Assembly: GCF_000710915.1 (NCBI RefSeq) | Contig: NZ_BAUA01000100.1 | Span: forward strand, 1-64,000 | Reading direction: 5' to 3' | Length of the DNA: 64,000 nt | Source of the DNA: Nocardia brasiliensis IFM 10847 | GTDB taxonomy: Bacteria; Actinomycetota; Actinomycetes; Mycobacteriales; Mycobacteriaceae | Shown here: piece by piece, positions 6,751 to 23,516 of the stretch | Layout of the letters: each line of letters starts with the position of its first letter | Position numbering within the stretch: the first letter of the stretch is position 1 | Notes under the pieces: model-generated | What the model was told of the DNA's origin: nothing | Seen by the model: only the letters and a program-made list of their open reading frames with translations | The model's database searches: none | Made by a program: the position numbers and the translations under genes

Positions 6751-7068
6751 GCAGGAACCGGCGCCCGCGCGCGTCGCGCTGGTGGACCGCTGGGCTGGTG
6801 CTGCGGCGGAGGACCGCCGTGCTGCGCCGGTGCGCCGATAGCGGATCGCTGTGCCGCGTCGGTGTTCCGGCGGGTGGACTGCCGTGCTGTGCCTGGGCTC
6901 CGGCATCGGGCCGTTCGACCGGTGCCGCAAGACGCTTCGGCGGGTAGTGCGCTTGCCGCGCGCGGGTTGGGCGTATAAACGTGCGGGATGTCGCGTGGTC
7001 CCGGCGCGACCGAGGAGCCGCGCGAATTCCACCCGCAGTCCGTCACCGCACCGATCGAGAGGGCGCAG
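6751..7068. promoter_or_regulatory. Spacer upstream of recC with a probable -10 element
   Basis: This 318-base gap follows the GGDEF gene. Near its end, TATAAA at 6974-6979 is the most AT-rich hexamer in the area and fits a -10 box; the -35 is weak (GCTTGC at 6951-6956, 17-nt gap). An ATG at 6988, in frame with recC, would then be nearly leaderless. The ribosome-binding site GAGAGGG at 7057-7063 instead marks the ATG at 7069. Nothing else is evident in the gap. Confidence 0.4.
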
Positions 7069-10000
7069 ATGCCGTTGCACATCCACCGTGCCGAGCGCGC
7101 CGACGTGCTGGCGGACGAGCTGGCCGGGTTGCTGGCCACGCCGCTGCCGGATCCGTTCGCGGCGGAGGTGGTGGCGGTGCCCGCGAAAGGCGTGGAACGG
7201 TGGCTGACCCAGCGCCTGTCCGGGGTGCTCGGCGTCTCCGGTGCGGCGGGGGCGATGGCGTTCGCTCCGTCCACCGGTACCGCGTCGACCGACGGCGTGG
7301 CCGCGAACATCCAGTTCCCGTCGCCGGCCGCGCTGGTCACCGCGGCGCTGGCCGCGGCGAGCGGGGTTCGGCCCGAAGACGATCCGTGGGCGCCGGACAA
7401 TCTGGTGTGGACCTTGCTGCGGGTGATCGACGCCTCGCTCGGACAGCCGTGGTGCGCGGTGCTGACCCGGCATCTGGGCGCGCAGGACGGCACCGGACGC
7501 GATCATCGGATCGGCCGCCGCTACGCCACCGCCGCGCACCTGGCCGCGCTCTTCGACAGCTACGCGAGCCAGCGGCCCGCCTTGATCGTGGCGTGGGCCG
7601 CCGCGTCGGACACCGACGGCGCGGGCAATCCGGTGCCGGAGGACCTGCGGTGGCAGCCGGAACTGTGGCGGCGCCTGCGGGCCGAGGTCGGTACGCCGAG
7701 CCCGGCGGAGCGGCTCGACGCCGCGTGCGCACGGCTGCGCGCCGAACCCGGACTCGTACCGCTTCCCGAGCGCTTCTCGCTGTTCGGCGCGACCCGGCTG
7801 GCGACCGATCAGCTTGCCGTGCTCAGCGCCCTCGCGCAGACCCGGGACATCCATGTGTGGCTCCCGCATCCGAGCCCGGTGATGTGGCGCGCGTTGCGCG
7901 CCGCGCCCGCGGCGAGCACCCGCGCGGCCGATCGCAGCGCCGCGGCGGTGCGGCACCCGTTGCTCGCAGGGCTCGCCCGGGACGTGCGGGAGTTGCAGCA
8001 GCGCCTGGCCGGTGCGGCCGACACCGACACGCACCATCCGGTCGCCGATGCCGCTGAGTCACTTCCTGATTCAGCGGATACGACGTTGCTCCGCGCGGTA
8101 CAGGCGGGCCTGCGCGACGATCGATGGCCGCCCGCCGCGGTCCGCGCGGGTGACGGGACGGTGCAGGTGCACGCCTGTCACGGCCCCGCGCGTCAGGTCG
8201 AGGTGCTGCGCGAATGCCTGCTCGGCCTCTTCGCCGCGGACGACACGCTGGAGCCGCGGGACGTGCTCGTCATGTGCCCCGAGGTGGAGACCTATGCCCC
8301 GCTGGTACGGGCCGCCTTCGGGCAGCAGAGCGCGGGATCGGCCGGGCCCGTGTCGGATTCGGCCCATCCGGCGCACGGGCTGCGGGTGCGGCTCGCCGAC
8401 CGCGGCCGCGGCATCACCAATCCGCTGCTGGCGGTGATCGGCGTGCTGCTCGAGCTGGCCGACGGGCGGGTCACCGTCACCCAGGTGCTGGATCTGGCGG
8501 CGGCCGAAACCGTCCGGCGGCGTTGTGGATTCGACGACGACGATATCGAGCGCCTGCGTGAGTGGGCCGCCGAATCGGGTGCGCGCTGGGGGATCGGCCA
8601 GCGGCAGCGGCAGGCCTTCGGCCTCGCCGACTTCGCGCAGAACACCTTGAACAGCGCGGTGGATCGCATCCTGCTCGGGGTAACCGCGGGCGAAACCTCC
8701 GAGGACTGGCTCGATCTCGCGTTGCCGCTCGACGATGTGGACAGCAATGATGTCGACCTGGCCGGCCGGTTCGCGGAATTCATCGATCGGCTCGCGGTGT
8801 GCCTGCGCGATCTGCGCGGCCCCCGGCCCGCGCACGAGTGGGCGGCGGTTCTGGGCCGTGCGCTGGATCTGCTGACGGACGTGCCGAATTCGCAGTCCTG
8901 GGTGCGCACCGAGGCGCGCACCGAACTCGCCGCCGCGCTCGAGCGCGCGGGCGAGGTCGACCTGCGCCTCGCCGACGTCGAGGTGCTGCTGCACGCGCGG
9001 CTGGCCGCCCGCCCCACCCGGGCCAACTTCCGCACCGGCGAGCTGACCGTGTGCGCACTCGTGCCGATGCGTTCGGTGCCGCACCGGGTGGTGGTGCTGC
9101 TCGGCCTGGACGACGACGTGTTCCCGCGGGCCGGCGGCGTGGACGGCGACGACGTGCTGGCGCGCGATCCACTGCTCGGCGAACGGGATCCGCGGAGCGA
9201 GGATCGTCAGCTGCTGCTCGACGCCGTCCTCGCGGCGCAGGAGAAGCTACTGGTGTTCCACACCGGGGCCGACCCGGTGAGCGGCGCGCATCGCCCGCCA
9301 GCCATCCCGGTCGCCGAGCTGCTCGACGTGCTGCGGGCGCACGTCGGCGGGCCGGGTATGGACACAGTGGTGACGCGGCATCCGTTGCAGGGCTTCGACC
9401 GTCGCAATTTCCGCGCCGACGCGCCGTTCAGTTTCGACACGGTGGCGCTGGCCGGCGCGGTGTCCGCGGGGCAGCCCGCGCAACCGCGTCCCGCGTTCCT
9501 GCCCGAGCCGCTGTCCACCCCGGAACTCGCCGATGTCGCATTGGCCGACCTGATCTCGTTCGTCGAGCATCCGGTGCGCGCGTTCCTGTGGCAGCGGCTC
9601 GGTCTGCGCGTGCCGGAGCACGACGAGGACATCGCCGATCGGTTGCCCATCGAACTCGACGGGCTGGCCAAATGGGAACTCGGTGAACGGCTGCTCGCCG
9701 CCCGCCTGACCGGCGCCGACCCGGCGGCCCTGCGGGCCGCCGAATGGCGCCGGGGCACCTTGCCGCCCTTCGGTTTCGGCGCCGCGGTGCTGGACGAGGT
9801 CGAGCACACGGTCGACAAGCTGGTCCGCGCGTCGCAGGCCGACTACGAAGGCCCGGTGCGGGCCGTCGACGTCGCGGTGGACCTCGGTAACGGCCGCAGG
9901 CTCACCGGGACCGTGCCCGAGGTGCGCGGGGAAACCCTGGTGCGCACCACCTTCTCCCGGCTCGCCCCGAAACACCGGATCGCGGCGTGGGTTTCGCTGC

Positions 10001-10467
10001 TCGCCCTCGCGGTCACCGAGGATCGGTCCTGGCGGGCAGTGACCACCGGACGCGGCCAATTCGGCCGTCCCGCATGGCGTTCGGAGATCACCGCACCCGA
10101 AATGCCTGCCGCGCGCACGATCCTGCGTGAGCTCGTCGCGCTGCGCGACGCCGGCCTCACCGAGCCGTTGCCGATCGCGCCGGGCGCCACCGCCGCGTAC
10201 GCCGAACGTCGTTTCCGGGGTGCCACTGTCGAGGAGGCCGTCGTCGCGGCGGAGCGCGAGTTCAACGGCGGCCCGAACGGGCCCGGCCCGTTCGGCGACC
10301 ACACCGACCGTCATCTGCGCTACGTCTGGGGTCCCGCTCCTCGACTAGAACACCTGATGGAGATTCCCGCCCAGGCCGGGGAGCCCGGCGAGACCACCCG
10401 GTTCGGTGCGCTCGCCCGGCGCCTGTGGGCACCCCTGCTGACCGCGGAGAGCCAGGGGCAGCCGTGA
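7069..10467 (+). CDS. recC: Exodeoxyribonuclease V gamma subunit (RecC)
   Basis: RecC is the non-catalytic helicase-like subunit of RecBCD, which splits the duplex and scans for Chi during processing of double-strand breaks. The start at 7069 (MPLHIHRAERADVLADELA) has GAGAGGG 5 nt upstream and matches where RecC proteins usually begin; an in-frame ATG at 6988 would add 27 residues. The 1132-residue length is usual for the family. Recognisable parts are AVPAKGVERWLTQRL near the start, VQVHACHGPARQVEVLRE near 365 and the central MRSVPHRVVVLLGLDDDVFPR, all typical of RecC. It is first in a recC-recB-recD cluster, the order seen in mycobacteria. Confidence 0.92.
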   Translation: MPLHIHRAERADVLADELAGLLATPLPDPFAAEVVAVPAKGVERWLTQRLSGVLGVSGAAGAMAFAPSTGTASTDGVAANIQFPSPAALVTAALAAASGVRPEDDPWAPDNLVWTLLRVIDASLGQPWCAVLTRHLGAQDGTGRDHRIGRRYATAAHLAALFDSYASQRPALIVAWAAASDTDGAGNPVPEDLRWQPELWRRLRAEVGTPSPAERLDAACARLRAEPGLVPLPERFSLFGATRLATDQLAVLSALAQTRDIHVWLPHPSPVMWRALRAAPAASTRAADRSAAAVRHPLLAGLARDVRELQQRLAGAADTDTHHPVADAAESLPDSADTTLLRAVQAGLRDDRWPPAAVRAGDGTVQVHACHGPARQVEVLRECLLGLFAADDTLEPRDVLVMCPEVETYAPLVRAAFGQQSAGSAGPVSDSAHPAHGLRVRLADRGRGITNPLLAVIGVLLELADGRVTVTQVLDLAAAETVRRRCGFDDDDIERLREWAAESGARWGIGQRQRQAFGLADFAQNTLNSAVDRILLGVTAGETSEDWLDLALPLDDVDSNDVDLAGRFAEFIDRLAVCLRDLRGPRPAHEWAAVLGRALDLLTDVPNSQSWVRTEARTELAAALERAGEVDLRLADVEVLLHARLAARPTRANFRTGELTVCALVPMRSVPHRVVVLLGLDDDVFPRAGGVDGDDVLARDPLLGERDPRSEDRQLLLDAVLAAQEKLLVFHTGADPVSGAHRPPAIPVAELLDVLRAHVGGPGMDTVVTRHPLQGFDRRNFRADAPFSFDTVALAGAVSAGQPAQPRPAFLPEPLSTPELADVALADLISFVEHPVRAFLWQRLGLRVPEHDEDIADRLPIELDGLAKWELGERLLAARLTGADPAALRAAEWRRGTLPPFGFGAAVLDEVEHTVDKLVRASQADYEGPVRAVDVAVDLGNGRRLTGTVPEVRGETLVRTTFSRLAPKHRIAAWVSLLALAVTEDRSWRAVTTGRGQFGRPAWRSEITAPEMPAARTILRELVALRDAGLTEPLPIAPGATAAYAERRFRGATVEEAVVAAEREFNGGPNGPGPFGDHTDRHLRYVWGPAPRLEHLMEIPAQAGEPGETTRFGALARRLWAPLLTAESQGQP

Positions 10468-10567
10468 GGGGTGCGCCAGTGCGACGCGTCATGCGTGTCG
10501 GTGGGCCGGATGTGCGCACCGACCGGGCAGAATGGCCCTTTCGGCGGGTCGAGAGGCGGGTGTTCGC

Positions 10568-13500
10568 GTGACCGTACAAGACACCTCGTTCGTGGTGCCC
10601 GAGGTCGACGGGCCCGACGCCTTCGAACCCTACGGCCCGCTGCCGACGGGGACGACCGTGCTGGAGGCGAGCGCCGGAACGGGCAAGACGCACGCGATCG
10701 TGGGGCTCGCGGTGCGCTATGTCGCCGAGGCGGGGATCGACGTCGCCGAACTGCTGCTCGTGACGTTCAGCCGGGCCGCGACGCAGGAGTTGCGTGAGCG
10801 AACCCGGGAGCGGTTCGTGCTGGTCGCGGCGGGTCTGGCGGATCCCGAGCTGGCACGCGCGCACGCCGACGACCTGGTCCGCTATCTGGCGCAGGCCGAT
10901 CAGGAGCAGGTGCGGCGCCGGCGCGCCCGCCTGCTCGCCGCGCTGTCGGATTTCGATGCGGGCACCATCGCGACCACGCACAGCTTCTGCCAGCGGATGC
11001 TCGACGAACTCGGTCTCGCCGGCGAACACGACCCGGGCGCGCGGCTGGTGGAATCGGTCGACGAACTGATCGGCACGGTCGCCGACGACCGCTATCTGAA
11101 TCGGTACGCCCGTACCGAACCGCCGTTCACGGTGAAGGAATCACACACCCTGGCACTGGCCGCGGTGCAGGATCGGCACGCCGTGCTGGTGCCCGCCGGG
11201 GACTCCGCGGCGGGGGAGCGGGTGGCGTTCGCGACCGCCGTCCGGGCCGAGACCGAACGCCGCAAGCGGCTGGCGGGGCTGCGCGACTTCGACGACCTGC
11301 TGGTGCTGCTGCACGAGGTGCTCGCCGATCCCGACCACGGGCCCCGGGCCTGCCGGCGTATCCGCGCGCGCTACCGGGTCGCGCTGGTCGACGAGTTCCA
11401 GGACACCGACCCGCTGCAGTGGGACATCCTGCGCCGCGCCTTCCACGGCCACACCACCATGGTGCTCGTCGGCGATCCGAAGCAGGCGATCTATGCCTTC
11501 CGCGGCGCGGAGGTGCTCAGCTACCTGGACGCGGTCGCGCACGCCGACACCCGCAAGGAGCTCACCACCAACTGGCGCAGCGACGCGGGGCTGATCGCCG
11601 CGCTGGACCACCTGCAAGGCGGTGCGGCGTTGGGGCACAAGGAGATCAGCGTCTATCCGGTCGCCGCCACCCGCCCGTGGTCGCGGCTGGGCGGACCCGA
11701 GGAACTGCGCACTCCGCTGCGCGTGCGGTGTCTCACCCGCACCGGTGCGGGTCCGCTGAACAAGTCCGGCTTTCCGGCCGTCGGCCGGATGCGCGCGAAG
11801 GTCGCCGACGACCTGGCCGCCGATATCGTCCGGCTGCTCGAGTCCGGCATGACGCTGGACACCACCCCGCACCGCCCCCGGGACGCGGTGAACGGCACTG
11901 AGCAACAGCGGAATTCGACAGAAGGCGCGGCGGGAACAGACGGAGACGCGCTGCCGCCGCAGAATCGGCCGATCGGCCCCGGCGATATCGCCGTGCTGGT
12001 CCGGACGCGCTCGCAGATCGACGTCGTGCGAGCGGCACTGGACCGGGTGGGCGTGGCCTCGGTGCTCGCCGGTGGCACCAGCGTGTTCGCGACCGGCAGC
12101 GCCACCGATTGGCTCTGGGTGCTGCGCGCCCTCGAACAGCCGCATCGCGCCGACCGGGTGCGCCTCGCCGCCTGCACCCCGTTGTTCGGGATCACCGCCG
12201 CCGAGATCGACAGCGGCGGAGCGGATCTGGTCGGGCGGGTGAGCGCGCAATTGCGCGACGCGGCCCGGTTGTTCGCGCGCGCTGGTTTCGCCGCCGTCTT
12301 CGAGAAGATCTCGGCCGAAGCCGATCTCGCGCATCGGCTGCTCGCGGTCGAGAACGGCGAGCGACAGCTCACCGACCTGCGTCACGTCGCGCAGCTGCTC
12401 GATCAGGTGGCGCTCACCGAATCGCTCGGGCTCACCGCGCTGACCCGCTGGCTGGCCGATCGGGTGCGTGATCCGGCCTCGGGCACGGTCGCCGATCGCA
12501 GTCGCCGGCTCGACCGCGACGCCGCGGCCGTGCAGATCGCCACCGTGCACGCCAGCAAGGGCCTCGAATTCCCGATCGTCTACTTGCCTTTCGCCTGGGA
12601 CAACGCGAAGAACCCGTATCCGGCGACGCTGCTCTTCCACGACGACAACGGTGCGCGGGTGCTCGACGTCGGCGGTCCGGACGCGTCCGGCTACGCGGAA
12701 CGCAAGCTGCGCAGCGAAGCCGAGGAAGCGGGCGAGGAACTGCGCCTGCTCTATGTCGCGCTGACCCGCGCCATGTGCCAGGTCGTCGCCTGGTGGGCGC
12801 CCGCGATCACCACGGCCGCCTCGCCACTGCACCGGATGGTGCTCGGCAGGCCCGACGGCGGCGACACCGTGCCGCCCCGCGCGTCCGTTCCCGCGGATGC
12901 CGCTGCGCCAGGGCTGCTTTCGGCCTGGGCCGGGGGAGCGGGGGCGGCCATCTCGGTGACCGCGGTGGCGGGTACCGAGGACGTGACGATCCAGCGGGTG
13001 CGCGGCGAGCGGGAAACCGGCGAACTCGCCGTCGCGCGCTTCGAGCGCACCCTCGACCAGAACTGGCGCCGGACTTCGTATTCGGCGTTGACCGCCGCCG
13101 CGCACGGCCCCGCCGCGATCGCGCCGGAACTCGAACCCGAGAACGGGCGGGAGCCCGGGGACGAGCCGCAAGACGCGCCCGTCGCCGCGCTCGAGGAGGT
13201 GTTCGGTGGCGCGCCCTCGCTGATGAACGCCCTGCCCTACGGCGCGGAGTTCGGCACCCTGGTGCACGGCGTGCTGGAGCTGATCGATACGGACGCGCCG
13301 GATCTGGCCGCCGAGGTGAGCGGACAGTGCCGCGCCGTGATCGGCGAACTCATGGCCGAGGTGGACCCCGACCTGCTCGCCGCGGCGTTGCTCGCCGTGC
13401 TGCGCACGCCGATGGATATCGGCGCGCTCGCCGACATCTCCAGCCGGGACCGCTTGAACGAACTGGAATTCGAGCTGCCGCTGGCCGGCGGTGACACGCC

Positions 13501-14005
13501 GCGCGCCACCTCGGCGACGCTGCGCCGGATCGCCGATCTGCTGCGCGCGCATCTGCCTGCCGACGACGACCTCTTCGTGTACGCCGATCATTTGGCCGCG
13601 CTCGACGACCTTCCGCTGCGCGGCTATCTCACCGGCAGCATCGATGCCGTGCTGCGGGTCGCCGACGGCGCCGACACCCGCTACGTGATCGTCGACTACA
13701 AGACCAACCGGCTGGGCACCGGCGATCTCACCGTCGAGCATTACACCCGCGAGCGGATGGCCGCCGAGATGCTCCGCTCGCACTACCCGTTGCAGGCTCT
13801 GCTGTATTCCGTTGCCCTGCACCGCTATCTGCGGTGGCGGTGGCCCGGCTACGACCCGTCGCGGCATCTCGGTGGTGCCCGCTACCTGTTCGTCCGCGGC
13901 ATGGTCGGCGCCGGAACCCCGCCGGGTCACGGGGTATTCGACTGGCATCCGCCCGCGTCGCTGATCGTCGCGTTGTCCGCGCTGCTGGCCGGGGACGTGC
14001 AGTGA
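10568..14005 (+). CDS. recB: Exodeoxyribonuclease V beta subunit (RecB helicase-nuclease)
   Basis: RecB is the 3'-5' superfamily 1A helicase and the only nuclease of RecBCD. Visible motifs are Walker A EASAGTGKTH (residues 33-42), LLVTFSRAATQELRERTR, Walker B VDEFQDTDPLQW (about 273), GDPKQAIYAFRGAE, and VHASKGLEFPIV with LLYVALTRA as helicase motifs V and VI. The C-terminal RecB nuclease site is present (GSIDAVLRV then VIVDYKTNRL, about 1023-1045), so the enzyme should cut DNA. GTG at 10568 is preferred, with GAGAGG at 10551-10556; an in-frame ATG at 10532 is the alternative. About 100 bases separate it from recC. Confidence 0.92.
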   Translation: MTVQDTSFVVPEVDGPDAFEPYGPLPTGTTVLEASAGTGKTHAIVGLAVRYVAEAGIDVAELLLVTFSRAATQELRERTRERFVLVAAGLADPELARAHADDLVRYLAQADQEQVRRRRARLLAALSDFDAGTIATTHSFCQRMLDELGLAGEHDPGARLVESVDELIGTVADDRYLNRYARTEPPFTVKESHTLALAAVQDRHAVLVPAGDSAAGERVAFATAVRAETERRKRLAGLRDFDDLLVLLHEVLADPDHGPRACRRIRARYRVALVDEFQDTDPLQWDILRRAFHGHTTMVLVGDPKQAIYAFRGAEVLSYLDAVAHADTRKELTTNWRSDAGLIAALDHLQGGAALGHKEISVYPVAATRPWSRLGGPEELRTPLRVRCLTRTGAGPLNKSGFPAVGRMRAKVADDLAADIVRLLESGMTLDTTPHRPRDAVNGTEQQRNSTEGAAGTDGDALPPQNRPIGPGDIAVLVRTRSQIDVVRAALDRVGVASVLAGGTSVFATGSATDWLWVLRALEQPHRADRVRLAACTPLFGITAAEIDSGGADLVGRVSAQLRDAARLFARAGFAAVFEKISAEADLAHRLLAVENGERQLTDLRHVAQLLDQVALTESLGLTALTRWLADRVRDPASGTVADRSRRLDRDAAAVQIATVHASKGLEFPIVYLPFAWDNAKNPYPATLLFHDDNGARVLDVGGPDASGYAERKLRSEAEEAGEELRLLYVALTRAMCQVVAWWAPAITTAASPLHRMVLGRPDGGDTVPPRASVPADAAAPGLLSAWAGGAGAAISVTAVAGTEDVTIQRVRGERETGELAVARFERTLDQNWRRTSYSALTAAAHGPAAIAPELEPENGREPGDEPQDAPVAALEEVFGGAPSLMNALPYGAEFGTLVHGVLELIDTDAPDLAAEVSGQCRAVIGELMAEVDPDLLAAALLAVLRTPMDIGALADISSRDRLNELEFELPLAGGDTPRATSATLRRIADLLRAHLPADDDLFVYADHLAALDDLPLRGYLTGSIDAVLRVADGADTRYVIVDYKTNRLGTGDLTVEHYTRERMAAEMLRSHYPLQALLYSVALHRYLRWRWPGYDPSRHLGGARYLFVRGMVGAGTPPGHGVFDWHPPASLIVALSALLAGDVQ

Positions 14006-14072
14006 GCGCAGACAGCATCGTCCGGGCCGCGCCGGCGCGGCAGCGGTGCGTTTCCGGGGAGCGGAGGACGCG

Positions 14073-15989
14073 GTGACCTCGATCCAGTTGGCGCAGCGCG
14101 GGACCGGGCTGCTGCGCACCTTCAACGAGGCGGGCGTGCTCTCGGCCGCCGACGTGCACGTCGCGGTGCGGCTCGGCCGATTGGGGCGGGAGGAGACCGG
14201 CGCGGTGCTGTTCGCGGCGGCCCTGGCCGTGCGCGCGGTGCGTTCCGGCTCGGTCTGCCTCGAGCTGCACCGGATGCGCGAGATCGGCATCGACGCCGAC
14301 GAGACCTGGGACACCGGCGAGCGGATCGACCCGGCCACCTTGCCGTGGCCCGATATCGAGGCGGTGGTGGCCGCGCTGCGGGCGAGCCCGCTGGTGACCG
14401 GCGGCCCCGCGGGCCCGTTGCGGCCGTTGCGGCTGGTCGAATCGCAGGGCCGCGACGATTCCGGCCCGCTGCTCTACCTCGATCGGTACTACCAGCAGGA
14501 GCAGACCGTGCGCCGGGTGCTCACCGAGCGCTCCGGCGATCATCCGGTGGTGGACCCGGATATCGTTCGGCGCGAACTGGATCGGCTGTTCGACGCGCCA
14601 GTGGACGGGACGCCGGACCGGCAGCGGCTGGCCGCCGCGCTCGCCGCGACGCACTGGACCACCGTGGTCGCGGGCGGCCCGGGCACCGGCAAGACACACA
14701 CCATCGCGCGCATCATCGGCCTGCTCGACGCGCACCGCAAAGCCAACCCCAAACTGCCCGCGCTGCGGATCGCGCTGGCCGCGCCGACGGGTAAGGCGGC
14801 GGCCCGGTTACAGGAGGCAGTGCGCGAACAGGCGGCGGCACTGGGACTGCCCGATCTGACCGCCGCCACGCTGCACCGGCTGCTGGGTTGGCAGCGCGGC
14901 CGCACCACCCGGTTCAAGTATCACGAATTCAACCGCCTGCCCTACGACGTGATCGTCGTCGACGAGACGTCGATGGTGTCGCTGACCATGATGAGCAGGC
15001 TGTTCGCCGCGCTGCGCCCGGACACCAGGCTGGTGCTCGTCGGCGACCCCGACCAGCTCGCCTCGGTGGACGCGGGCGCGGTGCTCGCCGACCTGGTCGC
15101 GGGACCGGTCGCGGGCACGCCGAATCCGGTGCTCGATCAGATACTCGGCGCGGATTCGCCGGAATCGGCCGCGCCGGAACAACATCCGGCGGCTTTGAGC
15201 GTGCTGGAGCGCACCCGGCTGCGCGGCGGCATCGTCCGGCTGACCCGGGGTCGCCGCTTCGGCGGCCGGATCGCGGACCTCGCGGTGGCGGTCCGCGCGG
15301 GCGACGCCGACACCGCGCTCGAGCTGCTGCGCGCGGGTGGGGACGAGCTGTCGCTCTGCGCACCCGACGAAATGGCCGCCGTGCGTGCCGATGTCGTGCA
15401 CGCGGCGCGCGCGGTGACGGCCACGGCGCTCGACGGGGACGCGGCGGGCGCGTTGACCGCGCTGGAATCGCACCGGCTGCTCTGCGCGCATCGGCAGGGT
15501 CCGTTCGGCGTCGAGCGCTGGGACCGGATGGCGGCCGAATGGGCAGCAGCCGGGGGAGCGGGGCCCGAATCCTACCATGCGCCTTGGTATCCGGGGCAGC
15601 CGCTGCTCGTCACCGCGAACGATCACGAGGCGCGCATCTACAACGGCGACACCGGCGTGGTGGTCCGCATGCCCGACGGGTCGCTGCGCGCCGCGCTGCA
15701 ACGCGGCAGCGAGCCGTATCTGGTGCACCCCACCCAGTTTCCGGCGGTGGTCACCGTGTTCGCCATGACCATCCACCGCAGCCAGGGCAGTCAGTACGAC
15801 ACCGTCTCGGTGGTGCTGCCCGAACCGGAGTCGACCCTGCTGACCAGGGAATTGCTCTACACCGCGATCACCCGCGCCCGCCGCCACGTCCGCATCATCG
15901 GCACCGACGAGTCGATCCGGGCCGGTATCGCGCGCCGTGTGCTGCGCGCCAGCGGGCTGTCCCGGCCCGCCGGGGCGGACGGGCGGTGA
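14073..15989 (+). CDS. recD: Exodeoxyribonuclease V alpha subunit (RecD helicase)
   Basis: RecD is the 5'-3' superfamily 1B helicase of RecBCD. The 638-residue protein shows the N-terminal TFNEAGVLSAADVHVA region, Walker A VAGGPGTGKTHT (about 202), Walker B VDETSMVSLTMMSRLF, GDPDQLASVDAG and the C-terminal FAMTIHRSQGSQYDTV and LLYTAITRAR motifs. GTG at 14073 is chosen because GGAGG at 14063-14067 is 5 nt upstream; a GTG at 14046 lies before that site. It closes the recCBD cluster; the sigma factor promoter begins 9 bp after its stop. Confidence 0.92.
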   Translation: MTSIQLAQRGTGLLRTFNEAGVLSAADVHVAVRLGRLGREETGAVLFAAALAVRAVRSGSVCLELHRMREIGIDADETWDTGERIDPATLPWPDIEAVVAALRASPLVTGGPAGPLRPLRLVESQGRDDSGPLLYLDRYYQQEQTVRRVLTERSGDHPVVDPDIVRRELDRLFDAPVDGTPDRQRLAAALAATHWTTVVAGGPGTGKTHTIARIIGLLDAHRKANPKLPALRIALAAPTGKAAARLQEAVREQAAALGLPDLTAATLHRLLGWQRGRTTRFKYHEFNRLPYDVIVVDETSMVSLTMMSRLFAALRPDTRLVLVGDPDQLASVDAGAVLADLVAGPVAGTPNPVLDQILGADSPESAAPEQHPAALSVLERTRLRGGIVRLTRGRRFGGRIADLAVAVRAGDADTALELLRAGGDELSLCAPDEMAAVRADVVHAARAVTATALDGDAAGALTALESHRLLCAHRQGPFGVERWDRMAAEWAAAGGAGPESYHAPWYPGQPLLVTANDHEARIYNGDTGVVVRMPDGSLRAALQRGSEPYLVHPTQFPAVVTVFAMTIHRSQGSQYDTVSVVLPEPESTLLTRELLYTAITRARRHVRIIGTDESIRAGIARRVLRASGLSRPAGADGR

Positions 15990-15997
15990 CCGGCGGG

Positions 15998-16026
15998 TCT
16001 CACGTTTCCGGCGACCCGCGCGTCTA
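15998..16026 (+). promoter_or_regulatory. ECF-type promoter-like site 1, upstream of the sigma factor gene
   Basis: TCTCACGTT (15998-16006), a 14-nt spacer and CGTCTA (16021-16026) repeat exactly the layout found at 18193-18221; the flanking bases TCCGG/CCGG and CC are also shared. Read as TCTCACG-N16-CGTC, the architecture resembles known ECF promoters of the TGTCACA-N16-CGTC kind. The end of CGTCTA is 7 bases from the GTG start, so the sigma mRNA would begin at its start codon. Self-activation by the sigma factor is inferred. Confidence 0.7.
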
Positions 16027-16032
16027 CCCGGT

Positions 16033-16512
16033 GTGAGATTGCCTCCGTTCGAGGAAGTGGTGGCCGAGTACGGCCCGATGGTGCTGCGCGTCTGCCGGGC
16101 GGTGCTCGGCCCGACGGACGCGGCCGACGCGTGGTCGGAGACGTTCCTCTCCGCACTGCGCGCCTACCCCGACCTGGACGCCGACGCGAACATCGAGGCC
16201 TGGCTGGTCACCATCGCGCATCGGCGCGCGATCGACGTCGGGCGCGCACTGACCCGCGCGCCCGTCCCCGCCGAGACGCTGCCCGAGCGTCCCGCCGCGA
16301 GCCCCGACCCGGCGGATTACGACCCCGACCTCTGGGCTGCCTTGAAAGCGTTGCCGCCCAAGCAACGTCAGGCCGTCGCCTACCACTATCTGGCAGGCCT
16401 GCCGCATGCCGAGATCGCCCGGCTGCTCGGCAATTCCACCGACGCCGCCCGCCGCGCCGCCGCCGACGGCCTGAAAACGCTGCGCAAGCTCTACCCGAAG
16501 GATGAGACATGA
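16033..16512 (+). CDS. Small sigma-70 family (ECF-like) sigma factor
   Basis: The 159-residue protein has only the two core sigma domains. Region 2 is about residues 6-75 (EYGPMVLRVCRAVLG, SETFLSALRAYP, WLVTIAHRRAIDVGR) and region 4 about 100-155 (LPPKQRQAVAYHYLAGLPHAEIARLLG, a helix-turn-helix for the -35 element). No extra C-terminal domain and no anti-sigma gene are seen. The GTG at 16033 has no ribosome-binding site but lies where a transcript from the CGTCTA element would start, so it looks leaderless. Its stop overlaps the next gene's ATG (ATGA), giving translational coupling to a methylguanine methyltransferase. I infer that it drives the repair genes through 18760. Confidence 0.85.
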   Translation: MRLPPFEEVVAEYGPMVLRVCRAVLGPTDAADAWSETFLSALRAYPDLDADANIEAWLVTIAHRRAIDVGRALTRAPVPAETLPERPAASPDPADYDPDLWAALKALPPKQRQAVAYHYLAGLPHAEIARLLGNSTDAARRAAADGLKTLRKLYPKDET

Positions 16513-17129
16513 TGGCCACCATCGACTGTGGCGACCCGGACGGTCTGTTCGACGGCCTCGCGTCCGGCGACGCCGAGCTGCTGGCGGTGCTGCGGCGCCG
16601 GCTGGCCGAGCAGGCGCAGGACGCCGGGCTGCTCGACGTCGCCTACCGGACCGTGGACACCCCGGTCGGCACGCTGCTGCTCGCGGCCACCCCCGCCGGG
16701 TTGGTGCGGGTCGCCTACCCCAACGAGAACCACGACGCGGTACTGCACACGCTCGCCGAGCGGGTCAGCCCCCGGGTGCTGGCGGCACCTGGTCGGCTCG
16801 CTGCCGCGGCCCGCCAGCTCGACGAGTATTTCGCCGGTGCGCGAACACATTTCGAGCTGCCGCTGGATTTGCGGTTGACGGCCGGCTTCCGGCGGCAGGT
16901 GATCGAGCAGCTGAGCGCGATCGGCTACGGCCGCCGGGAAAGCTATGCCGCGGTCGCGGCCGCGGTCGGCAATCCGCGCGCGGTGCGCGCCGTCGGTTCG
17001 GCCTGCGCGCACAACCCGCTGCCCGTGGTGATCCCGTGCCACCGGGTGGTCCGCAGCGACGGCTCGATCGGCCAGTACGTGGGTGGCAGCGTCGCCAAGT
17101 CCACGCTGCTCACCCTCGAAGCCGCATGA
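16509..17129 (+). CDS. Methylated-DNA--protein-cysteine methyltransferase with N-terminal extension
   Basis: The 206-residue protein has the suicide methyl-acceptor motif VVIPCHRVVRSDG with Cys177, so it should remove methyl groups from O6-methylguanine. The helix-turn-helix part (FRRQVIEQLSAIGYGRRESYAAVAAAVG) and the N-terminal RNase H-like part (DTPVGTLLLAATPAGLVRV) are normal. About 45 residues precede that part (DPDGLFDGLASGDAELLAVLRRRLAEQAQDAG) and are not standard for Ogt. Because the gene overlaps the sigma gene by 4 bases, this extension might contact the sigma factor and make the protein a damage sensor; that is a hypothesis. A shorter paralogue is at 18254. Confidence 0.88.
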   Translation: MMATIDCGDPDGLFDGLASGDAELLAVLRRRLAEQAQDAGLLDVAYRTVDTPVGTLLLAATPAGLVRVAYPNENHDAVLHTLAERVSPRVLAAPGRLAAAARQLDEYFAGARTHFELPLDLRLTAGFRRQVIEQLSAIGYGRRESYAAVAAAVGNPRAVRAVGSACAHNPLPVVIPCHRVVRSDGSIGQYVGGSVAKSTLLTLEAA

Positions 17130-17192
17130 ATGCCCTTGCCGCGCAGGTCGAGGGGCACGCGCACCGACTACCCGCTGAACTATGGAGGCGGC

Positions 17193-17921
17193 ATGACCGA
17201 CACGAAAATCACTGCTGCACCGGCTGATCGCGTGGCCGCGCAATCCTGGCCCGCCCTCGTCGAGGAGTTGGACGCGTACGGCTGCGCCCAGACCGGCCCA
17301 CTGCTGACCCCGGCCGAATGCGCCGAATTCACCGGCATGTGGGAAGATCCGGGGCGATTCCGCTCCACCATCGATATGGCCCGCTACCGCTTCGGCCAGG
17401 GCACCTATCGCTATTTCGCCGACCCGGTACCCGAACCGATCATGGCACTGCGCGCGGCCTTCTATCGAAAGCTGTTGCCCGTCGCGCGTTCCTGGGCCGA
17501 ACGGCTCGGCGATCCCGCGCCGTGGCCCGACGATTTCGCGGAGTGGCTCGCCACCTGTCATGCCGCGGGGCAGACCAAGCCGACGCCGATCCTGTTGCGC
17601 TACACCGCGGGTGATTGGAACGCGCTGCACCGCGACCTCTACGGTGACCTGGTCTTCCCGTTGCAGATCGTGCTCGGCCTGGACCGGCCGGGCCTCGACC
17701 ACACCGGCGGCGAGTTCCTGCTCGTCGAGCAGCGTCCGCGCGCCCAGTCGAAGGCCACCGTCACAGTGCTCGGACAGGGGCACGGCCTGATCTTCACCAC
17801 CCGCGACCGCCCGACGCCGTCGAGTCGGGGCTGGTCCCGGGCGCCGGTCCGGCACGGCGTCAGCCGCATTCGCGGCGGGATCCGGCACACGCTGGGCCTG
17901 GTCCTGCACGACGCGCAATAG
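17193..17921 (+). CDS. 2-oxoglutarate/Fe(II)-dependent oxygenase, probable DNA/RNA repair or hydroxylase
   Basis: The 242-residue protein carries the iron triad of the double-stranded beta-helix fold: H146-R-D148 (NALHRDLYGDLVFPLQ) and distal His221 (VRHGVSRIRGG), with an Arg about ten residues later (IRHTLGLVLHD) for 2-oxoglutarate. The start at 17193 has GGAGG at 17184-17188. Its place between two methylguanine methyltransferases suggests removal of alkyl lesions as AlkB does, but the sequence is not a textbook AlkB and could be a prolyl/other hydroxylase. Expression with the sigma factor operon is inferred from spacing (63 bp after ogt). Confidence 0.78.
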   Translation: MTDTKITAAPADRVAAQSWPALVEELDAYGCAQTGPLLTPAECAEFTGMWEDPGRFRSTIDMARYRFGQGTYRYFADPVPEPIMALRAAFYRKLLPVARSWAERLGDPAPWPDDFAEWLATCHAAGQTKPTPILLRYTAGDWNALHRDLYGDLVFPLQIVLGLDRPGLDHTGGEFLLVEQRPRAQSKATVTVLGQGHGLIFTTRDRPTPSSRGWSRAPVRHGVSRIRGGIRHTLGLVLHDAQ

Positions 17922-17928
17922 CGCGCGG

Positions 17929-18192
17929 ATGTACATGCTGCTGGACGGCACGGGCCGCCCGTACGAGAGCTCGACCCCGGGCCGGTACGGCGGCCATCGG
18001 CGCGGCAAACTCTACGGGCGGCTCGACTGCCCGTCCGCCCTGCGCGCGCTCTCGCGTGGCGCCTACCGCGCGCACCGGGTGTTCTTCGCCGACGAGGCCA
18101 CCGCGCTCAGCGCGGGGTATCGCCCGTGTGCGGTCTGCCTGCCCGAGCGGTACGCGGCATGGAAAGCGTTGCGGCAGAACGGCTCCGAATGA
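17929..18192 (+). CDS. Stand-alone Ada-type zinc-binding domain protein
   Basis: The 87-residue protein matches the N-terminal metal domain of Ada (GRLDC, RVFFADEATALSAGYRPCAVCLPERY). Ada holds zinc with four cysteines, one of which accepts methyl from phosphotriesters. Here only three are visible, C34, C67 and C70: the first CxxxC pair has become one Cys (LDCPSALRAL). It may bind metal with another ligand, or have lost the classical acceptor chemistry. It lacks the AraC-type DNA-binding and Ogt domains of Ada. It starts 7 bp after the oxygenase stop, so it is cotranscribed; the second promoter-like site begins directly after its stop. Confidence 0.8.
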   Translation: MYMLLDGTGRPYESSTPGRYGGHRRGKLYGRLDCPSALRALSRGAYRAHRVFFADEATALSAGYRPCAVCLPERYAAWKALRQNGSE

Positions 18193-18221
18193 TCTCACGT
18201 TCCGGCTCGGGCACGCGTCTA
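18193..18221 (+). promoter_or_regulatory. ECF-type promoter-like site 2, upstream of the second methyltransferase
   Basis: TCTCACGTT (18193-18201), 14 nt, then CGTCTA (18216-18221), the same two boxes at the same spacing as at 15998-16026 while the spacer differs in sequence. It starts right after the stop of the Ada-like gene. A start of transcription near 18228 would leave a 26-nt leader with the ribosome-binding site GAAGGAG at 18241-18247. Confidence 0.7.
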
Positions 18222-18253
18222 CCTGGAGTGGAGATCGAACGAAGGAGTCGGAT

Positions 18254-18760
18254 ATGAATACAGCCGCACGTACCGTGCACACCTCGGTCCTCGGGAATCT
18301 GCATCTGACAGCAGGGCCCGCGGGTCTCACCCGCGTCGAGTTCACGAACGCACCCGCCGCTGCGCCGACCGCCGAGAACTCCTGTGCGCTGCAGTATCTG
18401 CTCGCCGCGGTCCGGCAGATCGACGCCTACCTGGCGGGCACCCGCCGCGAATTCACCGTGCCGCTGGACCGTTCCGGTTGGAGTGCCTTCGATCGGGACG
18501 TGCTGTCCGCGCTCGAGACCGGCACGCCCTACGGCCACACCACCACCTACGGCGCACTGGCCCGTGCTCTCGGACGTGGTCGCGCCGACGCCCGCAAGGT
18601 CGGCGGTGCACTCGCCAGGAACCCGCTGCTGCTGCTCATCCCGTGCCATCGCGTGCTCGGCGCGGGCGGCGCGCTCACCGGTTACGCGGGTGGGTTGCCC
18701 GCGAAACGCGCGCTGCTCGACCTCGAATCACCCGATCTCCGTTTGCCCTTGGCGGTCTGA
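18254..18760 (+). CDS. Methylated-DNA--protein-cysteine methyltransferase, short form
   Basis: The 168-residue protein has the acceptor motif LIPCHRVLGAGGALTGYAGG with Cys131 and the DNA-binding segment FDRDVLSALETGTPYGHTTTYGALA. It is close to the usual Ogt length and lacks the N-terminal extension of the copy at 16509. GAAGGAG at 18241-18247 fixes the ATG. It has its own copy of the sigma-type promoter, so it may be induced with the operon while being transcribed separately. Two methyltransferases in one regulon suggest backup capacity or different substrate preference. Confidence 0.9.
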   Translation: MNTAARTVHTSVLGNLHLTAGPAGLTRVEFTNAPAAAPTAENSCALQYLLAAVRQIDAYLAGTRREFTVPLDRSGWSAFDRDVLSALETGTPYGHTTTYGALARALGRGRADARKVGGALARNPLLLLIPCHRVLGAGGALTGYAGGLPAKRALLDLESPDLRLPLAV

Positions 18761-22316: not shown

Positions 22317-23516
22317 ATGGCCGACGGGCGATCGATGTTTCGAACGTGGTGGCAAGACCCGGTCGACTATCGCCGACTGGTCGAGACCTTCGGGTCCCAT
22401 TCGGCGCTGGGCCGATTCAAGTTCATGCTCGGCGCCGGTGGGATCGTCATGCTGACCATCGCGGTGCTCGCATCGATCGCGCAGGGGGATGTGGCCGGCC
22501 CGGTCGGCGAGGTGCAGGGCATCGTGGAAGCGCTCGTAGCGGGCGCCTGGACGGTGCGCTGGTGGTTCTTGCCGTGGCCGCGGGAGAAGGAATCGCTGCT
22601 CTGGATCGTCTTCTTCGATCTCGATACCGCCGCCAACGACGTGCTGGTGCACGACCGGGTCGTCGGCGTGCTCGGGGTGGTGCTGCTGACCGCGATCGGC
22701 GCGTATGTGACCGTCTTCCACGGTCCGCGGGTGCTCGCGCTGCACATCGGCTGGACGCTGCTGACGAGCGTGGTGCTCGCGACGTTGATGGTCCAGGGCG
22801 CGCTGGCGGACAACAAGCCGACCACCCGCACGGCCGATCTCGCCCTCGGCCTCGCGGTGGTGCTGGTGATGATGGTCGTGGTCGGCGTGATGCTTCCGTT
22901 CATCCAGTTCAGTCACTGGCTGCTGCGCAAGGACGCGCTCTCGGATCCGCTGACGGGGCTGCTGAACCGGCGCGGGCTCGACAACCGGCTGCCGTCGTAT
23001 CTGGGCCACGGCCGCCGCGGCGCCGCCTACGTCGCCACGCTGGACCTGGACCGCTTCAAGGTCGTCAACGACACCTTCGGGCATCCGTTCGGTGACGAGG
23101 TCCTGGTGCGTACGGGTGAGCGGTTGCGCGCGGCCGCCGACGCGGACGCGCTGATCGCGCGCACCGGTGGGGAGGAGTTCGTGGTCGTCGGATATCTCCG
23201 CGAGGATCCGGCGGCGGTCGGCGAGCGGTTGCGCGACGCGCTCGCGACCATGCCGGACCTGCCGGTGCGGATCACGGCCAGCGTCGGCGTCGCGGTGCTC
23301 GATCCCTGTCATCCCAAGGCCGTCTACACCTCGGCGCTCTATCGCGAACTGCTGCGCGGCTCCGACTCGGCGATGTACCGGGCCAAGCGGCTCGGTGGCA
23401 ATGCGGTGGTACTCGCCGAGCAGAACGAACCGAACTCGGCCCGGCCATGGCGCGTCCCGGACCGGCGCGCCATGGCGGACCTGCGGTGGCATCCGGAGAT
23501 GCTGTACCGGGGTTGA
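22317..23516 (+). CDS. Membrane-bound GGDEF protein (diguanylate cyclase), intact paralogue
   Basis: The 399-residue protein begins MADGRSMFRTWWQDPVDYRRL, spans the membrane several times in residues 35-205, and ends in a GGDEF domain (DPLTGLLNRRG, DLDRFKVVND, signature GGEEF in ARTGGEEFVVVG). It should make cyclic-di-GMP, perhaps sensing a membrane signal. It is colinear with the gene at 5671 over its whole length, and both share GAGGCGGTGACC before the start, so the two are paralogues about 16.6 kb apart. No EAL domain is fused or adjacent. Confidence 0.88.
   Translation: MADGRSMFRTWWQDPVDYRRLVETFGSHSALGRFKFMLGAGGIVMLTIAVLASIAQGDVAGPVGEVQGIVEALVAGAWTVRWWFLPWPREKESLLWIVFFDLDTAANDVLVHDRVVGVLGVVLLTAIGAYVTVFHGPRVLALHIGWTLLTSVVLATLMVQGALADNKPTTRTADLALGLAVVLVMMVVVGVMLPFIQFSHWLLRKDALSDPLTGLLNRRGLDNRLPSYLGHGRRGAAYVATLDLDRFKVVNDTFGHPFGDEVLVRTGERLRAAADADALIARTGGEEFVVVGYLREDPAAVGERLRDALATMPDLPVRITASVGVAVLDPCHPKAVYTSALYRELLRGSDSAMYRAKRLGGNAVVLAEQNEPNSARPWRVPDRRAMADLRWHPEMLYRG

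Follow-up and report, generated by a model that had tools for sequence, protein, structure and literature searches.

An ECF sigma factor and the extended Ogt encoded next to it in Nocardia brasiliensis: a candidate alkylation-sensing anti-sigma system

In the 64,000-nucleotide stretch of Nocardia brasiliensis IFM 10847 analysed here (contig NZ_BAUA01000100.1, positions 1 to 64,000 of the forward strand; hereafter the window), the gene of a small extracytoplasmic function (ECF) sigma factor overlaps that of an Ogt with an N-terminal extension, which we call OgtA. This arrangement raises the question of what holds the sigma factor in check and what sets it free. The well-known bacterial response to alkylation runs through Ada, and Ogt proteins are single-use repair proteins that react irreversibly. 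A preliminary description of the region, made from the sequence alone, had recognised no anti-sigma gene and had offered either the extended Ogt or an Ada-like protein as the damage sensor. Our scan agrees on the first point, since none of the seven proteins scanned matched a Pfam anti-sigma domain at an E-value of 0.01 or less. On the second, the answer that we hold with slightly better than even confidence is that OgtA serves as an anti-sigma factor in the cytoplasm, with its suicide repair reaction as the sensor. The elements concerned are the following:

15998..16027, + strand: promoter P1, TCTCACGTT-N14-CGTCTAC, before the sigma gene
16033..16512, + strand: ECF sigma factor, 159 amino acids, GTG start, region 2 and region 4 only
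16509..17129, + strand: OgtA, 206 amino acids, N-terminal extension and complete Ogt domain (Pfam, structure model)
16509..16637, + strand: OgtA residues 1-43, sigma-linked extension and proposed anti-sigma domain, with a helix at residues 15-38
16578..16616, + strand: OgtA residues 24-36, predicted dock on sigma region 2.1/2.2 (couplings, threading)
17034..17045, + strand: PCHR motif of OgtA with the putative alkyl-acceptor Cys177 (Cys-His-Arg kept in 311 of 312 OgtA sequences)
18193..18222, + strand: promoter P2, with motif and spacing as in P1, before the gene of a second Ogt (ogtB)

The sigma factor matches Sigma70_r2 (1.1e-12) and Sigma70_r4_2 (1.3e-11) of Pfam and no other domain, lies above the cut-off for the NCBIfam sigma70-ECF superfamily and is 99% identical to its Nocardia brasiliensis and N. 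vulneris counterparts. Its stop codon and the OgtA start codon share the letters ATGA; the preliminary description had called the two genes translationally coupled. The extension, first given as 45 residues, is real and measures about 43 here, because the Methyltransf_1N match begins at residue 45 and the solved relatives of OgtA found by sequence align from residue 42 or later, with the exception of one tagged chimera. In the AlphaFold2 model of OgtA (111-sequence alignment; mean predicted local distance difference test score, pLDDT, of 93.5), the helix at residues 15-38 is placed with high confidence in front of a complete Ogt fold, which resembles M. tuberculosis Ogt and E. coli C-Ada. Residues 1-20 are less certain (block means of 59 and 65).

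The pair is common in actinobacteria. Sigma orthologues were found at 1e-25 in 50/394 class, 65/397 order and 154/401 family genomes sampled, and at 1e-22 in 59/396 phylum genomes sampled; these samples are not disjoint, and the window's own genome is among them. Orthologous loci were gathered by the sigma protein alone and only part of them, the best first, were fetched, so they are not a random draw; to these were added loci from named genomes, for which the 80 best of 549 confirmed stretches were taken. This gave 321 distinct loci, 315 of which have at least 900 bp of sequence downstream. OgtA came next after the sigma gene in 312 of these 315, more than chance would give, and the start-stop overlap was of 4 bases in 272 of the 312. 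The sigma-OgtA pair is near-obligate: the three exceptions are L213, L198, where the sigma match is partial, and L194, where the sigma frame is split and the other entry is followed by OgtA.

The extension goes with the sigma gene. Among 60 close relatives, 13 carry the sigma factor at E-values below 1e-48, and the strongest match after these is near 1e-14. OgtA was found in the same 60 genomes at E-values below 1e-60 in 14 copies from 13 genomes, which are exactly the sigma-positive ones (none of the 47 sigma-negative genomes has it), and the strong matches in the 13 include the extension. The other Ogts of these relatives gave 1e-38 or weaker, and for most of them the alignment begins at about residue 38 or beyond. 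Earlier starts are seen in a few Ogts (at residue 16 in G042, 24 in G040, 25 in G049, 26 in G044 and 31 in some others), several of which are encoded beside an Ada gene.

A few loci depart from the common form. In L126, L139 and L150 the pair is followed, at a distance of a few hundred to 3000 bases, by a second sigma-family match. The OgtA frame of L274 is 521 amino acids long, possibly by C-terminal fusion to a further domain. A decayed further copy is seen in G006 (contig C43, about 387880-389324, - strand, locus L432), where the promoter motif stands with Ogt and Ada-zinc matches and an OgtA-like frame with a stop, and where no sigma match was listed. A mobile origin was considered and not favoured: a search of plasmids with OgtA gave no match at 1e-40. 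A relative of the sigma factor with 55.6% identity lies at MT837780.1:5288-5737 (L463), on a 6.5 kb unverified, unannotated faecal scaffold named 'Bacteriophage sp.', which is perhaps host DNA.

The first reading of the region had overlooked two promoters of equal spacing. The motif TCTCACGTT-N14-CGTCTAC occurs twice in the window, compared to no match in 100 shuffles, and a shorter form occurs three times in the whole genome (9.15 Mb, 223 contigs), two of them being those in the window. At P1 the sigma GTG lies 6 nt past CGTCTA, where the transcript would begin, and for this reason the sigma mRNA is probably leaderless. Within 900 bp upstream, the strict form CACGTT-N14-CGTC(T/A) was found in sense orientation in 111 of the 321 loci and in none in antisense or reversed form. 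Of the remaining 210 loci, 113 had a sense site and none an antisense site within 160 bp, when scored at 12 or more with a weight matrix trained on the strict-motif sites of the 111. Where no ogt intervenes between a strict site and the sigma gene (n=67), the start codon is exactly 6 nt away in 49 and 4-7 nt away in 58. Across the 60 relatives, 20 exact copies of the motif lie in 10 of the 13 sigma-positive genomes and 2 copies in 2 of the 47 sigma-negative ones, as compared to 6 and 22 occurrences, respectively, of the reversed-motif control. Since the motif is conserved before the sigma gene in orthologues, we infer that this promoter is read by the sigma factor, probably at both P1 and P2, which points to autoregulation.

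The regulon looks local, with two promoters and five genes, because no further strict target was found and looser matches are no commoner than the reversed control (118 sites genome-wide with up to 2 mismatches vs. 123). Seven one-mismatch sites and one site of odd spacing were inspected; they lie mostly inside long open reading frames (ORFs), and none of the eight stands before an evident repair gene, their ORFs not having been searched against families. A wider regulon in the host genome was rejected at this threshold; weaker sites may exist.

How OgtA could act on the sigma factor was approached by coupling analysis (mean-field and pseudolikelihood) of the 312 concatenated pairs, with an effective number of 176 at 80% identity. 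The top inter-protein coupling, sigma L42 with OgtA L41, ranks 4th and 3rd overall in the two methods. After direct coupling tests had given little, we took an independent yardstick from Table 2 of PMC7406223, namely the 18 contacts of sigma region 2 with helix 4 or the linker of the anti-sigma factor that are common to four crystal structures, and threaded them along OgtA. For this, E. coli RpoE was aligned to the sigma factor with an offset of 16, gap-free through region 2. The best of 191 OgtA windows was 24-36, with mean z of 1.46 and 1.86 in the two methods (window standard deviations 0.30 and 0.32). The second-best, 20-32, is one helical turn off, unrelated windows reached at most 0.72, and threading of the reversed helix gave nothing above 0.75. 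When sigma offset and OgtA window were both left free, OgtA 24-36 at the homologous sigma position ranked first of 23,085 placements in both methods. In mean-field runs the same placement was first in 7 of 8 random clade half-sets and second in the remaining one, and it was first with only the 234 pairs less than 66% identical to that of the window. The main contributing sigma-OgtA residue pairs are E7-R29, A11-R29, V10-L28, E7-A33, A31-L25 and V10-R29. The extension helix is thus predicted to dock on sigma regions 2.1/2.2 like a known anti-sigma helix.

A model of the two proteins tethered in a single chain (pLDDT 89, predicted template modelling score 0.77) was compared with solved sigma chains. 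Superposition of its sigma part gave about 23 Å against polymerase-bound chains in most rows (15.9-16.9 Å in one) and about 12-17 Å, over both domains, against anti-sigma-bound chains. In this model the stretch preceding the main helix is itself helical (model residues 170-177); it is coil in the model of OgtA alone. A few couplings of OgtA to sigma region 4 were seen.

The promoter, the obligate pair, the link between extension and sigma factor and the docking surface are supported by comparison across orthologues, and they would fit the following circuit. The sigma factor would transcribe from its own promoter P1 and from the ogtB promoter P2. OgtA, made from the overlapping frame that follows the sigma gene, would hold the sigma factor through its N-terminal helix on regions 2.1/2.2. 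On repair of O6-alkylguanine, OgtA would take the alkyl group irreversibly on Cys177, which we take to be the acceptor from the role known in the Ogt family, and the spent protein would change or be degraded, letting the sigma factor go. Sigma thus freed would give more OgtA, which resets the switch, together with an oxygenase, a zinc protein and OgtB. Inhibition of the sigma factor, its release on alkylation and induction by alkylating agents are what we infer beyond these supported parts. Because each repair would use one OgtA and free one sigma factor, the operon may count lesions stoichiometrically, one O6-alkylguanine repaired for one OgtA spent, and reset itself; we give this reading as a whole, with the repair protein as anti-sigma factor, an even chance. 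Cys21 of the sigma factor was also considered as alkyl acceptor and dropped: it is invariant in 18 of 18 aligned orthologues, but is not among the positions conserved to at least 95% in the 312.

Several results weigh against OgtA being the anti-sigma factor. About 97 of the 321 loci have no promoter match near the sigma gene by either criterion, and in 123 loci with wide flanks the pair stands alone in 53 (the sigma gene alone in 1), as counted over the 20 commonest arrangements. The tethered model has no interface score or control. When partners were shuffled within clades, the docking score came to 1.07-1.58 for 103 clusters, where one shuffle in five exceeded the real 1.46, to 0.73-1.04 for 48 and to 0.30-0.64 for 8; of the top 100 couplings, 24 are inter-protein in the real pairs, and this number fell to 11-17 and 5-8 on shuffling. 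Couplings of the sigma factor with the catalytic domain are seen as well: of the 17 inter-protein pairs among the top 100, 4 involve residues 13-43. The share of the extension among the top couplings is barely over expectation (3 of the top 10 and 11 of the top 40 vs. 1.9 and 7.7), and for a sigma patch defined post hoc the enrichment is weak, the helix and the catalytic domain each having 6 of 25 where 3.5 are expected. In a control subset with the oxygenase (96 loci, effective number 41), OgtA 24-36 was the best window at the true offset, with 0.79, while the oxygenase control reached 0.60 and the best true-offset placement ranked only 96 of 23,227.

Another explanation is that the ECF operon is autoregulated and carries OgtA only as a repair passenger, that the extension serves stability or DNA binding, and that the sigma factor responds to another signal, to proteolysis or to transcription alone. 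ECF factors under such controls and with no cognate anti-sigma factor exist, according to the group descriptions of a 2022 review (PMC8999054), and the catalytic residues of OgtA are kept. The coupling signals could come partly from shared ancestry: since the within-clade shuffles lower the docking score stepwise and partners share ancestry, that score may be partly phylogeny. Shared ancestry by itself should not choose both the homologous site and the additional helix. The passenger explanation also has to face the tracking of the sigma gene by the extension in the 60 relatives, the frequent occurrence of the pair alone and the first rank of the helix on the anti-sigma site, and we regard it as possible and rather unlikely.

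OgtA might instead be a co-activator, whose alkylated form binds and helps the sigma factor as methylated Ada does with RNA polymerase. A precedent is given in PMC4437013, in whose account RNA polymerase needs both methylated Ada and a sigma factor at the ada promoter. The predicted surface speaks against this. Regions 2.1/2.2, which the sigma factor needs to bind core RNA polymerase, contact the beta' clamp and, in the complexes treated in PMC7406223, are covered by known anti-sigma factors, which therefore probably block clamp binding. A helix docked there should inhibit, so an anti-sigma role is favoured over co-activation, which we consider improbable.

That the pair senses another electrophile or stress through Cys177, with DNA repair secondary, seems very improbable: the kept Cys-His-Arg motif would suit it, as would the 56 of 123 wide-flank loci with no oxygenase, zinc protein or second Ogt and the ten neighbouring ORFs of six minimal or near-minimal loci, in which no repair domain was found, but the other 67 loci carry at least one of these three and the DNA-binding Ogt fold is complete.

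In the proposed circuit the rest of the cluster would be the output. The five genes, all on the + strand, were found where the preliminary description had put them (from ORFs and Pfam matches), as were the recBCD genes upstream, which are context outside the sigma-OgtA unit:

6988..15989, + strand: recC, recB and recD (Pfam Exonuc_V_gamma/RecC_C, UvrD-helicase/UvrD_C, RecD_N)
17193..17921, + strand: 2-oxoglutarate-Fe(II)-type oxygenase, 242 amino acids (PF09859, 2.1e-78)
17929..18192, + strand: Ada-zinc-like protein, 87 amino acids (Ada_Zn_binding, 4.3e-7, above gathering cut-off)
18254..18760, + strand: OgtB, 168 amino acids, Ogt with no extension and with its own PCHR motif (DNA_binding_1, 1.6e-25)

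Both OgtA and OgtB have the Ogt domains and the PCHR active site of an Ogt. The oxygenase, which had been taken for the AlkB part of an Ada/AlkB response, does not bear this out: PF09859 was its sole Pfam match at E-values up to 0.01, with no AlkB family among the matches. Its H146-D148-H221 residues are kept (101 orthologues compared). The oxygenase is present in 52, the zinc protein in 37 and the second Ogt in 46 of the 123 wide-flank loci. A gene for a cytochrome P450 (20682-21941) and one for a GGDEF-domain diguanylate cyclase (22317-23516) come after the cluster.

A sensor role is unlikely for the Ada-like protein. The protein occurs in a minority of the wide-flank loci, and when aligned to the host's own Ada it has Gly30 at the place of the first Ada cysteine, presumably the alkyl acceptor. 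It has the zinc-domain match only, with three cysteines (Cys34, Cys67 and Cys70) where Ada has four, and lacks the AraC helix-turn-helix. The extended Ogt, by contrast, gains specific support as regulator from its co-occurrence with the sigma factor and from the coupling-based docking.

A sigma-led repair regulon, as first described, is supported by the shared, conserved promoter. That it takes the place of an AraC-type Ada is not supported: the same genome encodes such an Ada on contig C116, a protein of 547 amino acids in which Ada_Zn_binding, HTH_18 and AlkA_N domains were matched. Of the 13 sigma-positive relatives, the host included, 11 have a strong match to the Ada zinc domain, and G037 and G052 have none; the order of the Ada domains was checked in the host genome. 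The sigma-OgtA circuit would then usually add to Ada and not replace it, as a second, parallel system. On contig C116 the Ada-AlkA gene (L049:3070-4713, - strand) has an ogt beside it (L049:2537-3073, - strand) and forms a second alkylation-response locus.

If true, the proposal would tie damage and its repair to gene expression through a single stoichiometric step, and would represent an alkylation-sensing principle distinct from Ada, spread across the actinobacterial phylum and occurring also in some lineages that gave no match to the Ada zinc domain. It might also provide a self-resetting switch for synthetic biology.

The pairing of sigma factor and methyltransferase is already known as a genomic association, because PMC8999054 names the neighbours of its group ECF122. 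The entry for this group describes ECF factors that have no anti-sigma factor and whose conserved neighbour is a 6-O-methylguanine DNA methyltransferase, lists the mechanism as unknown and gives as example the actinobacterium Cellulomonas. Our sigma factor fits ECF122 by this neighbourhood feature and is a candidate member of the group: it shares the methyltransferase neighbour (312 of 315 loci) and the lack of a cognate anti-sigma gene. Promoter, extension and docking are not part of that entry, and the proposed circuit would supply ECF122 with a concrete and easily tested mechanism. In the open-licence literature searched, ECF122 is named only in PMC8999054, no title or abstract describes an Ogt as anti-sigma factor, and no account was found of the promoter, the local regulon, the extension-sigma link or the anti-sigma assignment.

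As in the Ada response (E. coli Ada; actinobacterial AdaA-AlkA), repair would be coupled to induction by irreversible alkylation of a cysteine. Unlike Ada, the route would be a sigma factor, and the sensing cysteine would lie in an Ogt domain and not in an Ada zinc domain. M. tuberculosis Ogt (4bhb, 4wx9) shares the fold and the active site of OgtA; it lacks the N-terminal extension and aligns from OgtA residue 44. In CnrH-CnrY, RpoE-RseA, SigK-RskA and SigW-RsiW a helix lies on sigma regions 2.1/2.2, as predicted here, and the short two-helix extension, seen in the tethered model only, recalls class II CnrY and proves nothing. In these known pairs the sensor is a membrane, zinc or periplasmic domain. 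What would set the Nocardia pair apart from the four systems just named is that its sensor domain is a DNA alkyltransferase.

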